Positions 28,623 through 33,287 are shown, counted from the first letter of the stretch. The stretch is 64,000 nt of DNA from Malonomonas rubra (GCF_003247215.1 NZ_QKAP01000063.1:1-64000), one strand, 5' to 3'. Translations and numbers: made by a program. Notes: a model not told the origin generated them from the sequence alone.

Positions 28623-28849
28623 TTGGTGCGAGAGTCCAATCTTTCATGACAGCCCGCAAGCTGGGCTAAATGGCTGGGTGGATTTTCCACCGCCTCTTCT
28701 GATAATTAACATACACGAACAAAATGCGTCAAACCCTTTCCCGCGCCCCCTTTCTGACTTTACAGGCGTGAAATCTCTGATAAATTTCAAAATAAGGCAA
28801 TTATAAAATCCCTGTCTTTCCGATCGGTTCTGTTAGCATTGCAAACATG

Positions 28850-28878
28850 TTGACAGAACGCAACAGACACGGGATAAC
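28850..28878 (+). promoter_or_regulatory. Sigma-70-type promoter for the SLC5/partner-switch operon
   Basis: TTGACA at 28850-28855 is a perfect -35 box and GATAAC at 28873-28878 is a fair -10 box, with a 17-base spacer. Transcription would start near 28885 and the small membrane-protein gene begins at 28917 after TGAGG. The rest of the 295-base divergent gap (28623-28849) shows no further gene or clear motif; the TPR operon promoter must also lie there. Confidence 0.6.
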
Positions 28879-28916
28879 GGTGCAGATTTTACCTGAACCA
28901 CCTGCTGAGGTTTACG

Positions 28917-29156
28917 ATGAAAGATCACCAAGGTGACTCGACCAAGGAAGCTTGGATCCTCTGCCTGATTCTCGGCGTCATATTTATCAACTTTCCATTT
29001 GTCCATATTTTCGACAATGATCGATTGATTTTTGGTATTCCGCCGCTGGTCCTGTATTTCTTTATCGGCTGGCCAGCGTCGATCGGCGTAACCTGGCTGT
29101 TCGTCAAACAGATAAACAAAGAAAGCGCTGCCAATGATGAAGAAAGGATGGAATAA
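28917..29156 (+). CDS. Small two-helix membrane protein preceding the SLC5 receptor
   Basis: A 79-residue protein with a charged start, then two hydrophobic helices, AWILCLILGVIFINFPFVHI (about 12-31) and LVLYFFIGWPASIGVTWLFV (about 43-62), and a charged tail ending in NDEERME. The ribosome site is TGAGG. It ends 8 bases before the SLC5 fusion gene, which has only a distant ribosome site, so translation is probably coupled. The arrangement recalls the small hydrophobic CbrX encoded directly before the SLC5-STAC kinase CbrA in Pseudomonas; homology is not shown. It may be an accessory subunit. Confidence 0.72.
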   Translation: MKDHQGDSTKEAWILCLILGVIFINFPFVHIFDNDRLIFGIPPLVLYFFIGWPASIGVTWLFVKQINKESAANDEERME

Positions 29157-29164
29157 CTCCTGAT

Positions 29165-32100
29165 ATGATTCCCGGTCACATTGTCCTGATCATATCCCTG
29201 CTATATTTTGCCCTGCTCTTTATAGTCGCCTTCTACGCTGACCGGCGCCGACGACAGGGCAGAAGCCTGCTGACCAATTCTTATATCTACTCTCTGGCGA
29301 TTGCCATTTACTGTACCAGCTGGACTTTTTACGGTAGCGTCGGCCGGGCAGCAACCAGCGGCCTGGAATTCTTGCCTATCTATATCGGTCCGACGTTAAT
29401 GGCTTTTACTTGGTGGTTCATCCTGCGCAAGATGGTCCGCGTCAGCAAAGAACAAAACATTGTAAGTATCGCGGACTTCATTTCCAGCCGCTATGATCGA
29501 TCCGCCCTGCTTGGTGCTATCGTCACCCTTTTTGCAGTGTTCGGCATCACACCCTACATCGCCCTGCAACTGAAAGCGGTCGCCAACACCATCGACATCC
29601 TCTCCAACCCCATGGCTTTAGCGCCTGACCAGCTAGGGGGACTGGCCGCAAAAATACCATCTTACATCGATACTGCCTTCCTTGTTGCTCTAGTGCTTGG
29701 CCTGTTCGGAATCCTGTTCGGAGCCCGTCACCTCGATTCATCCGAGCGACACGAAGGTTTGGTCGTAGCCGTTGCCTTAGAATCTCTGATCAAGGTGATC
29801 TCCTTTATTGCGGTCGGTATTTTTGTCACCTACGGATTGTTCGACGGTTTCCAAGACATCTTCCAAAGATTCTTCGAACAGTTTCCGGAACGTCAAAACA
29901 TGTTCCGACTGGGAACGGAGCAAACGCCTTACACGAAATGGTTTTCGCTGATTTTCCTGTCAATGATGGCGATCATGTTCCTGCCTCGCCAGTTTCATAT
30001 CATGGTCACGGAAAACGCGGATGAGCTACAGATAAAAAAAGCAATGTGGCGTTTCCCAGCCTACACCTTCCTGATCAACCTGTTCGTCATCCCGATCGCC
30101 CTCGGTGGATTAATCTTCACGGCCGGCGACATTTCCCAAGCAGACTTCTTTGTTTTGACCCTACCCCTTTCCGCCGGACACAAATGGCTGGCGCTACTGG
30201 TATTCCTAGGTGGGTTATCCGCTTCAGCAGGAATGGTGATGGTATCTTCGGTCACAATTTCGACAATGATCCATAATCACCTGGTGATGCCGATCCTCCT
30301 GCGGATAAAACTCAAGGGACAGGATTTTTCCGGCCTGCTAATCAACCTGAAACGACTCGGCATCCTCGGTGTAGTTTTTCTCGGTTACTTCTACTTCAAA
30401 ATCATTGGTGATTCCTATGCGCTGGTGAATATGGGCCTGATCTCCTTTATGGCCGCAACTCAGTTCGCCCCGGCGGTTATCGGAGGCCTCTATTGGAAAA
30501 GAGCAAACCGAAAAGCGGCAACAGTCGGACTCTGCCTCGGCTTCGCTTTATGGTTTTATACCCTCCTAATCCCATCTTTCGTTCTCTCCGGTTGGTTGGA
30601 CAAGGGCATTCTGGAACACGGCCCGTCCGGTATCGAACTCCTCAAGCCGCTAGAACTGTTCGGCCTGCACGGCTTCGACATGTACACCCACTGCCTGTTC
30701 TGGAGCCTGCTGTTTAATATCGCCGCCTACTTGACCTTCTCCTTTTTTGCCAAACAAAGCGCAACAGAAGAAATTCAGGCCGATAAGTTTGTCAATGCGC
30801 TACGTAGCGACAGACCCTCTCCGACGAAATTGAAACGACTCAGCAAAGCCCCAACGATTATGGAATTTGTTGAGCTGATGTCGAAATTTATCGGTGAAAA
30901 ACCGGCCAACGCTGCAATTTCAGAGTTTCTGGAAAACAGGGAGATCAGTTCCCGCGGCACCCTCTCCGATCATGAGATTCCAAAGTTGAAGACCTTTACT
31001 GAACGAACGTTGGCTGGTTATGTCGGTGCGGCACCGGCTCGTATTATCCTGGAAAACTACCTGTCGACCCGCGGCAGCAAAATGGAGGATGTCTTCGACA
31101 TTTTCGGTTCTATCACAATCAGCCATGCATCCAGCCGGGAACAGCTCAGCGTACTCTACGATACCTCGCAGTTGGTTGCCAGCGGAAATGAACTTAAGGA
31201 CATCCTCGATAACATCCTGCAACTGCTTTCCGCGCAGTTCAAATTCGATCTCTGTGTTATCCGTTTTCTGGAAAAAGAAACCATGACACTGACAGTTAAA
31301 AGTCAGCAGGGGATGTCTTCAGTTCACTTCGGACAATCTGAGCGCAACTTGAACATGGAGACATATATCGGCCAAGCGTTTCTATCCAATGTAACCGCCG
31401 TGGTCAACGATACTGAGTTTCTCGACAAACCAACCTCAGCAGAAATCATTTACCGCGAAGGAATCACCTGCTTTGCGCACACCCCAATTACGATGGAAGG
31501 GGAGCCGGTTGGAGTACTCTCGGCATTTTCGCGTACCGTCAAAGGAATTTTCACCAAAGAATTTATTGCCCTGTTCGAAAATATCGCCGGTCAGATAGCC
31601 ATCGCTTGGCGCAACGACAAACAGCTGCATAGCCTGCTTGAAGTACATGAGCAAGAACGGGAGATGCAAATCGCCAGAAATATTCAAATCAGCCTATTGC
31701 CAACCAACATACCGGCCATGGAGAAGGTATCGGTTTCCGGGCTCTGTGTTCCAGCACACCAGATCGGCGGGGATTATTTCGATTTCATTCCACGGGAAGA
31801 GTCCTGTTTCGACCTGATCGTCGCCGATGTTTCCGGGCACAATATCGGTTCGGCGTTAATCATGGCGGAAACCCGCACTTTTATTCATGCTCGTGCTGAC
31901 AACATAAAACAACCGGCGAAAATGATGCACTCCCTGAACAGATTCTTTTTCGACAATATGGATTGCTCAGATCTGTTCGTGACTATGTTCTACCTGCAAT
32001 ATTGCCCGAATGTACATTGTCTCACCTACAGTAGCGCTGGCCACAACACCCCGATCCTCTGGCGCAAGCATAAAAAAAGAATCGAACTGCTCGATGCCGA

Positions 32101-32383
32101 TGGTTTGATTTTCGGCATCCGCCCAGAAGTTGATTTTGAGCAAAAGGCCGAAACCCTTGAAGAGGGCGACACTCTACTCCTTTATACCGACGGCATCATA
32201 GAGGCTGAAGACACCCAAGGTGAATTTTTCGGCATCGATCGCCTTGGCAAGTTACTCCAAGAATGCGACGCGCTTTCACCGCAGGAAACAATCGACCGAA
32301 TAATGAATCAGGTGCGGATTTTTACCGGCCTGCGACATTTTAATGATGATATCACTCTAGTCGTGATGAAGGCCCTAAAATGA
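29165..32383 (+). CDS. SLC5 transporter-STAC-GAF-PP2C (SpoIIE) phosphatase fusion
   Basis: A 1072-residue polytopic signalling protein. Residues 1 to about 545 form an SLC5/sodium-solute-symporter domain of the type found in CbrA (YCTSWTFYGSVGRAATSG, VSIADFISSRYDRSALLGAI). Residues about 560-645 match a STAC-like helical domain (MEFVELMSKFIGEKPANAAI and ERTLAGYVGAAPARIILENY). A GAF domain follows (about 660-810), then a short coiled coil and a SpoIIE-type PP2C phosphatase (about 835-1072) with metal-binding motifs GGDYFDFI (about 866), VADVSGHNIGSAL, YSSAGHNTPILW, LLLYTDGIIEAED and FNDDITLVV. The usual histidine kinase output is replaced by a Ser/Thr phosphatase. STAS and RsbW-type genes follow, so it likely controls a partner switch. 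Confidence 0.9.
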   Translation: MIPGHIVLIISLLYFALLFIVAFYADRRRRQGRSLLTNSYIYSLAIAIYCTSWTFYGSVGRAATSGLEFLPIYIGPTLMAFTWWFILRKMVRVSKEQNIVSIADFISSRYDRSALLGAIVTLFAVFGITPYIALQLKAVANTIDILSNPMALAPDQLGGLAAKIPSYIDTAFLVALVLGLFGILFGARHLDSSERHEGLVVAVALESLIKVISFIAVGIFVTYGLFDGFQDIFQRFFEQFPERQNMFRLGTEQTPYTKWFSLIFLSMMAIMFLPRQFHIMVTENADELQIKKAMWRFPAYTFLINLFVIPIALGGLIFTAGDISQADFFVLTLPLSAGHKWLALLVFLGGLSASAGMVMVSSVTISTMIHNHLVMPILLRIKLKGQDFSGLLINLKRLGILGVVFLGYFYFKIIGDSYALVNMGLISFMAATQFAPAVIGGLYWKRANRKAATVGLCLGFALWFYTLLIPSFVLSGWLDKGILEHGPSGIELLKPLELFGLHGFDMYTHCLFWSLLFNIAAYLTFSFFAKQSATEEIQADKFVNALRSDRPSPTKLKRLSKAPTIMEFVELMSKFIGEKPANAAISEFLENREISSRGTLSDHEIPKLKTFTERTLAGYVGAAPARIILENYLSTRGSKMEDVFDIFGSITISHASSREQLSVLYDTSQLVASGNELKDILDNILQLLSAQFKFDLCVIRFLEKETMTLTVKSQQGMSSVHFGQSERNLNMETYIGQAFLSNVTAVVNDTEFLDKPTSAEIIYREGITCFAHTPITMEGEPVGVLSAFSRTVKGIFTKEFIALFENIAGQIAIAWRNDKQLHSLLEVHEQEREMQIARNIQISLLPTNIPAMEKVSVSGLCVPAHQIGGDYFDFIPREESCFDLIVADVSGHNIGSALIMAETRTFIHARADNIKQPAKMMHSLNRFFFDNMDCSDLFVTMFYLQYCPNVHCLTYSSAGHNTPILWRKHKKRIELLDADGLIFGIRPEVDFEQKAETLEEGDTLLLYTDGIIEAEDTQGEFFGIDRLGKLLQECDALSPQETIDRIMNQVRIFTGLRHFNDDITLVVMKALK

Positions 32384-32442
32384 GGTATAATGTTTATTAA
32401 TCTTGGCCACACCAGAAATGGTCTAAATATAAGGAGGATTCC

Positions 32443-32778
32443 ATGCAACTAAACATAACCGAACAGGGTGAAATCGTAAAAATAGAAGTTCAGGAAGAAC
32501 GAATGGACGCCCATAACAGTGGTGATCTCAAAGAGCAAATGCTGCAACTGTTTGATGATGGAAAATGTAACCTGATCATCGACCTGTCTGAGGTCAGATT
32601 TGTCGATTCTTCCGGCCTTGGTGCCCTGGTCTCCGGTTTCAAAAATGCCAGTGCGCGCAAGGGCAGCTTGAAACTCTGCTGCCTACAGCCACAGGTTCGT
32701 TCCATGTTCGAACTAACCAGGCTGCATAGGGTTTTCGAAATTTTCGCTTCGATTGAAGAGGCTTTGGAGAGTTACTGA
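32443..32778 (+). CDS. STAS-domain anti-sigma factor antagonist
   Basis: A 111-residue STAS protein with the phosphorylation loop VRFVDSSGLGALVSGFK (residues 51-67); Ser56 or Ser57 is the expected target of an RsbW-type kinase and of the PP2C domain encoded just upstream. In SpoIIAA/RsbV-like systems the dephosphorylated form binds the kinase and frees its partner. It has a strong ribosome site (AAGGAGG about 6 bases before the ATG) and lies 59 bases after the fusion gene, implying high output relative to the receptor. Confidence 0.9.
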   Translation: MQLNITEQGEIVKIEVQEERMDAHNSGDLKEQMLQLFDDGKCNLIIDLSEVRFVDSSGLGALVSGFKNASARKGSLKLCCLQPQVRSMFELTRLHRVFEIFASIEEALESY

Positions 32779-32812
32779 CCCCTAGGCTTTGCTGCTCGCA
32801 AAGGGACAATAA

Positions 32813-33235
32813 ATGTCGCAACAGGTTGACATAGACATCAGGGTACCCAACCAAACCAAGTACCTTGGGATGATCGGCAAAATTGGGGAGAGCCTTGCCC
32901 ACACGCTAGCGAATTATGAAGGGGATCGTGAGGAGCTAGCCTATCATCTCAACTTGGTACTGACTGAAGCTCTTGCAAATGCCATCTGTCACGCAAATGC
33001 CTGCGACCCGTGTAAAGAGGTGAAAGTATCAATCAGTGCCAGCAATAAAGAATTAACTATACGGGTTTTCGACCATGGACAGGGGTTCGACATCCAAAAG
33101 CTGGCACAAGCAAAAGTTCGAGCTACTGACGAAGGGGGCCGGGGTGTGCAGATCATCTTTAAACTGATGGATCAGGTCAAGTATCTGAAAAGTGGCGCCG
33201 GACACGTCTTGGAGATGACCAAACATCTTCATTGA
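32813..33235 (+). CDS. RsbW-type serine kinase / anti-sigma regulatory factor
   Basis: A 140-residue GHKL ATPase. The N-box is in NLVLTEALANAICHANACDP (about 45-64; Glu and Asn bind Mg-ATP), the G1 box is FDHGQGFDI (about 86-94) and the G2 region is TDEGGRGVQIIFKLMDQV (about 105-122). It should phosphorylate the upstream STAS protein. No sigma-factor gene is nearby, so its target may be a sigma factor or another regulator encoded elsewhere. A terminator follows directly. Confidence 0.88.
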   Translation: MSQQVDIDIRVPNQTKYLGMIGKIGESLAHTLANYEGDREELAYHLNLVLTEALANAICHANACDPCKEVKVSISASNKELTIRVFDHGQGFDIQKLAQAKVRATDEGGRGVQIIFKLMDQVKYLKSGAGHVLEMTKHLH

Positions 33236-33257: not shown

Positions 33258-33287
33258 GGCAGGAGGCTTATACTTCCTGCCTTTTTT
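33258..33287 (+). terminator. Factor-independent terminator of the partner-switch operon
   Basis: GGCAGGA and TCCTGCC form a stem with a short loop, followed by six T. It ends the plus-strand operon and overlaps the last codons of the convergent HAD gene. Confidence 0.8.

Follow-up and report, generated by a model that had tools for sequence, protein, structure and literature searches.

A window of 64,000 nucleotides (nt) of Malonomonas rubra DNA (GCF_003247215.1 NZ_QKAP01000063.1:1-64000, referred to as the window throughout) was examined, in which four open reading frames (ORFs) on the + strand, at 28917-33235, were recovered where an original prediction had placed them. These ORFs encode a small membrane protein, a receptor-phosphatase in which a transporter-like SLC5 domain is joined to STAC, GAF and SpoIIE-type (PP2C) domains (the fusion), a STAS protein and an RsbW-type kinase. 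The genes, the domains of the fusion and the downstream boundary are as follows (aa, amino acids; evidence in brackets):

28917-29156, + strand: 79-aa small membrane protein, predicted helical hairpin (ORF, structure model, homologues)
29165-32383, + strand: 1072-aa SLC5-STAC-GAF-SpoIIE (PP2C) receptor-phosphatase (Pfam, CbrA alignment, AlphaFold)
29165-30754, + strand: SLC5 (SSS-family, LeuT-fold) transporter-like domain, aa ~1-530 (phmmer to CbrA 10ed, fold matches)
30857-31072, + strand: STAC domain, aa 565-636, four-helix bundle (10ed alignment, model helices)
31178-31618, + strand: GAF domain, aa 672-818 (Pfam; identity to PDB entry 2QYB)
31556-31696, + strand: long GAF-phosphatase helix, aa 798-844, candidate signalling or switch helix (AlphaFold model)
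31712-32374, + strand: SpoIIE-type PP2C domain (Pfam, conserved aspartates, PDB matches)
32443-32778, + strand: STAS anti-sigma-factor-antagonist-type protein, 111 aa, DSSG motif (Pfam, NCBIfam, PDB alignment)
32813-33235, + strand: RsbW-type GHKL serine kinase (HATPase_c_2), 140 aa (Pfam, match to RsbW 6m36)
33258-33281, + strand: terminator-like hairpin and T-run, operon boundary (9 pairs, TTTTTT tail)

The gene blocks on both flanks of the operon are oppositely oriented and the last gene is followed by a terminator-like hairpin, which gives the four genes the appearance of a self-contained unit. An Rfam search of the window gave no match.

The original prediction had read SLC5, STAC, GAF and SpoIIE domains in one 1072-residue chain, preceded by a tiny two-helix membrane protein and followed by STAS and RsbW-type genes, and this arrangement was borne out. 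In a domain search of the fusion, Pfam placed SpoIIE at aa 882-1069 (E = 1.4e-48) and GAF_2 at aa 676-815 (E = 1e-11), and detected no HisKA domain, i.e., the C-terminus is a SpoIIE domain rather than a histidine-kinase output. The Pfam SSF model did not match the fusion at E <= 0.1 and was dropped as a test of SLC5 identity; homology to CbrA and fold were used instead. By phmmer, aa 8-636 showed strong homology to the CbrA SLC5-STAC structure 10ed (230 bits, E = 4.7e-67), with 31% identity over 583 aligned positions. In the AlphaFold model of the fusion (mean pLDDT 85), aa 1-550 match SLC5-fold structures (VIA Z up to 29), and aa 565-636 are predicted to form two hairpins (helices 565-576, 578-590, 605-620 and 622-636), a four-helix arrangement that agrees with the described STAC layout. 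Further along the model, aa 672-818 match GAF domains and aa 822-1071 match SiaA/RssB/SpoIIE phosphatases, and a 47-residue helix (aa 798-844) connects the two. Relatives of the PP2C domain in the PDB include RssB, Rv1364c and SpoIIE. The GAF domain is 42% identical to PDB entry 2QYB (118 bits); as the copy of the fusion in the Geobacter-like genome G324 matches this entry with 216 bits, 2QYB appears to be the GAF domain of the Geobacter sulfurreducens PCA orthologue.

The third gene was identified as STAS by Pfam (E = 5e-23) and as an anti-sigma-antagonist by NCBIfam, and the fourth as HATPase_c_2 by Pfam (E = 7e-22) and as RsbW by NCBIfam. The conserved D55-S56-S57-G58 of the STAS protein aligns with SpoIIAA-type 1th8 and with TM1442; from the SpoIIAA alignment, and from what we take to hold for SpoIIAA and RsbV in general, S56 is the putative phosphosite. 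The kinase, for which RsbW 6m36 was the best PDB match and which matches the RsbW/SpoIIAB families, has conserved N-box residues E52/N56 as well as D87-G89-G91 and G109-R110-G111. In the M. rubra genome, which encodes five SpoIIE proteins, it is the only HATPase_c_2 protein above the Pfam cut-off.

The distribution of the operon was surveyed in the class, i.e., the Geobacter/Desulfuromonas group (277 genomes, 82 genera), with a fusion relative counted at E <= 1e-90. Such a relative was present in 239/277 genomes and 76/82 genera, and was full-length in most among the matches listed; this distribution excludes a chance origin of the fusion. Among 63 class loci fetched, 53 were complete operons, all of which carry the small gene, the fusion, the STAS gene and the kinase gene adjacent and in that order. 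The catalytic residues of the PP2C, STAS and kinase proteins are conserved across these 53 loci; the PP2C metal-site aspartates (D870, D888, D1009, D1061 and D1062) are found in at least 97% of the fusions belonging to the module and in all 10 paralogues. The latter are the other 10 loci, i.e., extra full-length fusion copies without adjoining partners (L061, L074, L075, L088-L093 and L135), in genomes whose kinase gene lies at another locus; these copies may relay other inputs to the same switch. Across the 277 genomes, fusion and kinase were both found in 231, fusion only in 8, kinase only in 24 and neither in 14 (P = 1e-8, Fisher's exact test, relatedness not corrected; fusions were counted by score, so that a few may be kinase-fused receptors). 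The partner genes are thus found together with the fusion throughout the class. Moreover, in three Geobacter-like genomes (G540, G324 and G103) the fusion was the only SpoIIE protein found, and in two of these (G540 and G103) the operon kinase was the only HATPase_c_2 match at E <= 1e-6. Many class members also carry a co-oriented gene of ~520 aa that contains an AAA_33 domain directly upstream of the operon (e.g., L058 and L081); this gene is missing upstream in M. rubra, where 28623-28916 of the window is empty.

Some lineages retain the downstream genes without the fusion. In family f4, the small gene and the fusion are missing from the syntenic place and the STAS-kinase pair, directly preceded by the AAA_33-containing gene, is retained; among the f4 genomes searched, no close PP2C relative turned up at other loci (best E 4e-29). 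Genus g310 lacks the fusion and keeps the kinase, and two of its genomes have a short PP2C protein (open frames of 269-307 aa) that is ~40% identical. The short SpoIIE phosphatase of G582 (locus L151; 41% identical) lies directly upstream of STAS-kinase with no receptor fusion; another was observed at G576:C15:24493-25212, likewise in a genome without the receptor fusion. Separately, PP2C domains ~43% identical to that of the fusion were observed at G656:C80, G656:C115 and G657:C64 (open frames of 836, 413 and 448 aa), possibly as additional inputs with other sensors. Family f4 and the lineage with a stand-alone PP2C suggest that the transporter is an input plugged onto a PP2C-STAS-kinase core. 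Thus, as regards the proposed wiring of a transporter fusion to the STAS and kinase proteins, the co-occurrence stands and an obligatory tie does not. Neither of the findings named as refuting the prediction emerged, given the strong STAC/SLC5 homology and the shared occurrence of fusion and partners.

The fusion and STAS-kinase could also be mere neighbours, held together by a general conservation of gene order in this region; synteny likewise extends to the neighbouring genes (for a TPR protein, Lgt, RluD and others), and STAS-kinase persists without the fusion in f4. We consider this very improbable, as the PP2C, STAS and kinase proteins come from families that match biochemically and are the sole such proteins in some genomes, as fusion and kinase are jointly absent from 14 genomes, and as the sensor-less lineage keeps exactly the PP2C part.

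The small protein is predicted to be a helical hairpin (helices 6-30 and 43-78, pLDDT 76.5) and matches no Pfam or NCBIfam family. Its homologues were found upstream of SLC5-STAC receptors at 49/80 loci (Pseudomonadota, Bacteroidota, Nitrospirota and others). In 29/53 operons, the small gene and the fusion share a 4-nt overlap (in M. rubra, an 8-nt gap separates them), which suggests translational coupling like that of cbrX-cbrA (PMC7096432). The 79-aa protein is, by position, the counterpart of CbrX, which in the structure is bound to TM3/TM8 of CbrA (PMC13022988), although CbrA also works without it. A profile of 39 small-protein homologues matched no PDB chain below E = 0.2, the CbrX sequence not being compared directly. 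Homology to YhdT or YjcH, which are encoded beside E. coli SSS symporters, was also considered and was not supported.

Elsewhere in the phylum, receptors ~40-50% identical to the fusion were found, in which the match ends before the PP2C domain; the outputs detected by Pfam were GAF with HisKA/HATPase_c (L101) and GAF with HisKA (L172), and kinase sequences were seen in others. In an SLC5-STAC tree (a quick LG+G4, midpoint-rooted tree with some long branches), the PP2C fusions of the class form one clade (SH-aLRT 99) next to kinase-fused receptors, and a PP2C fusion from Streptomyces is placed in another kinase clade; the output label thus changes twice on the tree. The simplest reading of this topology is that the output was swapped from histidine kinase to PP2C once at the root of the class and once more in the Actinobacteria. 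The Streptomyces protein (L226) combines SLC5, STAC, GAF, PP2C and HATPase_c_2 in a single chain; it thus resembles the M. rubra operon in a SLC5-STAC-GAF receptor with PP2C output and in the presence of both PP2C and RsbW-type kinase, but differs in that the kinase is fused in cis, no STAS gene was matched nearby and the PP2C was gained separately. It is also rare, as only 2/296 sampled genomes of its phylum had a receptor match at E <= 1e-60, at least one with the L226 architecture. The L226 strain has a second SLC5-STAC receptor (G655:C22:640313-642295, a 1243-aa frame).

Other known systems can also be compared with the operon. CbrA/CbrX of Pseudomonas (10ed) shares SLC5 and STAC, a lysine in the Na2 site, an aromatic cage and a small hairpin protein encoded upstream, often overlapping; its output is PAS-HisKA-HATPase with a response regulator, whereas that of the fusion is PP2C. 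SLC5-STAC histidine kinases of the CrbS/MxtR type, taken here as kinase-fused SLC5-STAC proteins in general without singling out true CrbS orthologues, occur in many phyla with 37-48% identity over SLC5-STAC, share the LPRQ motif with the fusion and, as in M. rubra, often have a homologous small protein encoded upstream, but their output is a histidine kinase. Conversely, RsbU-RsbV-RsbW, SpoIIE-SpoIIAA-SpoIIAB, Rv1364c (3ke6), P. aeruginosa RssB and SiaABCD share the combination of PP2C, STAS and GHKL kinase with intact catalytic residues; compared to these, the operon has a transporter-type receptor as input and no linked sigma factor or other target.

In the SLC5 pocket, K210 of the fusion corresponds to the Na2-site lysine K196 of CbrA; it was found in 53/54 sequences and was invariant in the 40/40 receptors of one alignment (A2). 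The aromatic cage is kept relative to CbrA (Y49, W53, F69, Y73 and F428), and in place of the CbrA pocket residues F248, S251 and H257 the fusion has S266, A269 and R275, of which R275 is invariant in the same alignment, kinase-fused relatives included. Because a lysine occupies the Na2 site, the pocket would probably be proton-coupled, and its residues hint at a ligand that is not histidine and may be an anion; we have a weak preference for a carboxylate or a respiration-linked signal. The operon context gave no clue to the ligand, as the upstream gene proved to contain AAA_33 and not to encode an acetate enzyme, as had been guessed from its length. Among the relatives, two kinase-fused receptors adjoin DUF294 nucleotidyltransferase genes (L187, 8968-10656; L243, 8748-9902) and two adjoin an exonuclease gene. 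A CBS/nucleotidyltransferase protein belongs to the CrbS/R acetate regulon (PMC5715377), and acetate genes are under CrbS control; the DUF294 neighbours, being of this gene type, are only suggestive.

As the pocket aromatics and K210 are retained, the SLC5 domain might be a working transporter of which the phosphatase side controls uptake, with the signal running from the cytosol to the transporter and the state of STAS and kinase gating transport. The SLC5 domain of CbrA transports histidine, and its STAC fits into a pocket in the base of the transporter, on the cytoplasmic side (PMC13022988, PMC7096432). On the other hand, the C-terminal part is the signalling output in kinase-fused relatives, and the place of the whole receptor beside STAS-kinase can be taken by a stand-alone PP2C, which fits an output role; control of uptake is thus improbable in our view.

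Overall, we consider it likely that the fusion is an SLC5-STAC transceptor whose output has been swapped from a histidine kinase to a PP2C phosphatase and which drives a partner switch like RsbU/RsbV/RsbW. What the sequences and models document are the domain make-up, the intact catalytic residues, the conserved operon, the companion protein and the PP2C clade nested among kinase receptors; from these we infer that the transporter sets the phosphatase activity. Genome-wide uniqueness and operon conservation indirectly support that phosphatase, STAS protein and kinase act on each other. Under this model, a small solute would bind or move in the SLC5 pocket, probably coupled to protons, and the signal would be relayed by STAC; a cytosolic signal at GAF would join it, and the 47-residue helix would carry both to the SpoIIE domain, whose activity towards STAS phosphorylated at S56 would thereby be set. 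The RsbW-type kinase would work in the opposite direction by phosphorylating S56, and unphosphorylated STAS would bind the kinase, which would then release whatever partner it held. The 79-aa protein would be packed on the SLC5 domain in the way that CbrX is on CbrA. Several points weigh against this model: fusion paralogues without adjacent partners exist, f4 keeps STAS-kinase with neither the fusion nor a close PP2C, so that phosphatases other than the fusion are possible, and the operon carries no target gene. Moreover, none of the CbrA activities was significantly affected by L-histidine, and its SLC5 domain was not essential for them (PMC7096432), so that the SLC5 domain may modulate rather than sense.

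As predicted, no sigma factor lies nearby; there is none in the operon and none was recognised beside it in the window. Two kinds of target are compatible with the transceptor model. An unlinked alternative sigma factor (RpoS-like, FliA or RpoH) would make this a conventional anti-sigma circuit, with which the match of the kinase to the RsbW/SpoIIAB families and the five sigma70-type factors of the M. rubra genome are consistent; given the lack of a linked sigma gene, we regard such a target as possible but tend to doubt it. RpoS is unlikely as an obligate target, and was ruled out as such, since two genomes that carry the operon (G565, which is complete and a single contig, and G283) lack an RpoS-like factor. 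A non-sigma target, e.g., a diguanylate cyclase, an FlgM-type protein or an enzyme, as in SiaABCD and HsbRA, is quite conceivable, although we would stop short of calling it likely: the PP2C domain matches that of SiaA in structure (Z 26.9) and by the SiaA NCBIfam model, and no sigma factor is linked, but neither is any candidate target consistently linked, the AAA_33-containing gene being missing from the M. rubra locus.

Histidine-kinase and GGDEF outputs have been described for SLC5-STAC receptors (PMC5715377), and SSS proteins with GAF, PP2C_SIG and HATPase_c, of which L226 is one, were mentioned briefly for Actinobacteria in 2021 (PMC7918813). The entry 2QYB, the likely GAF domain of an orthologue, is titled merely "putative membrane protein", with no stated function. 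No paper on the M. rubra-type operon was found in the open-access literature searched. The suggestion that this is an undescribed signalling system therefore has to be qualified by the actinobacterial proteins and 2QYB, and the operon is a new version of an already known receptor class.

Nearly all known SLC5-STAC receptors are histidine kinases, and for the question of how the transporter communicates with the output, the same receptor on a different enzyme offers a clean comparison: the STAC-GAF signal must be a movement that is independent of the output. More doubtfully, the operon may be a class-wide nutrient or respiration checkpoint, in which solute occupancy of the transporter domain would set a Ser/Thr phosphatase and the partner switch would release a target unlike those of other systems. 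As some Geobacter-like genomes have the fusion as their only SpoIIE phosphatase and the operon kinase as their only RsbW-type kinase, a few deletion strains could expose the whole pathway, a signalling route of metal-respiring bacteria that spans nearly the entire class and has apparently not been studied.

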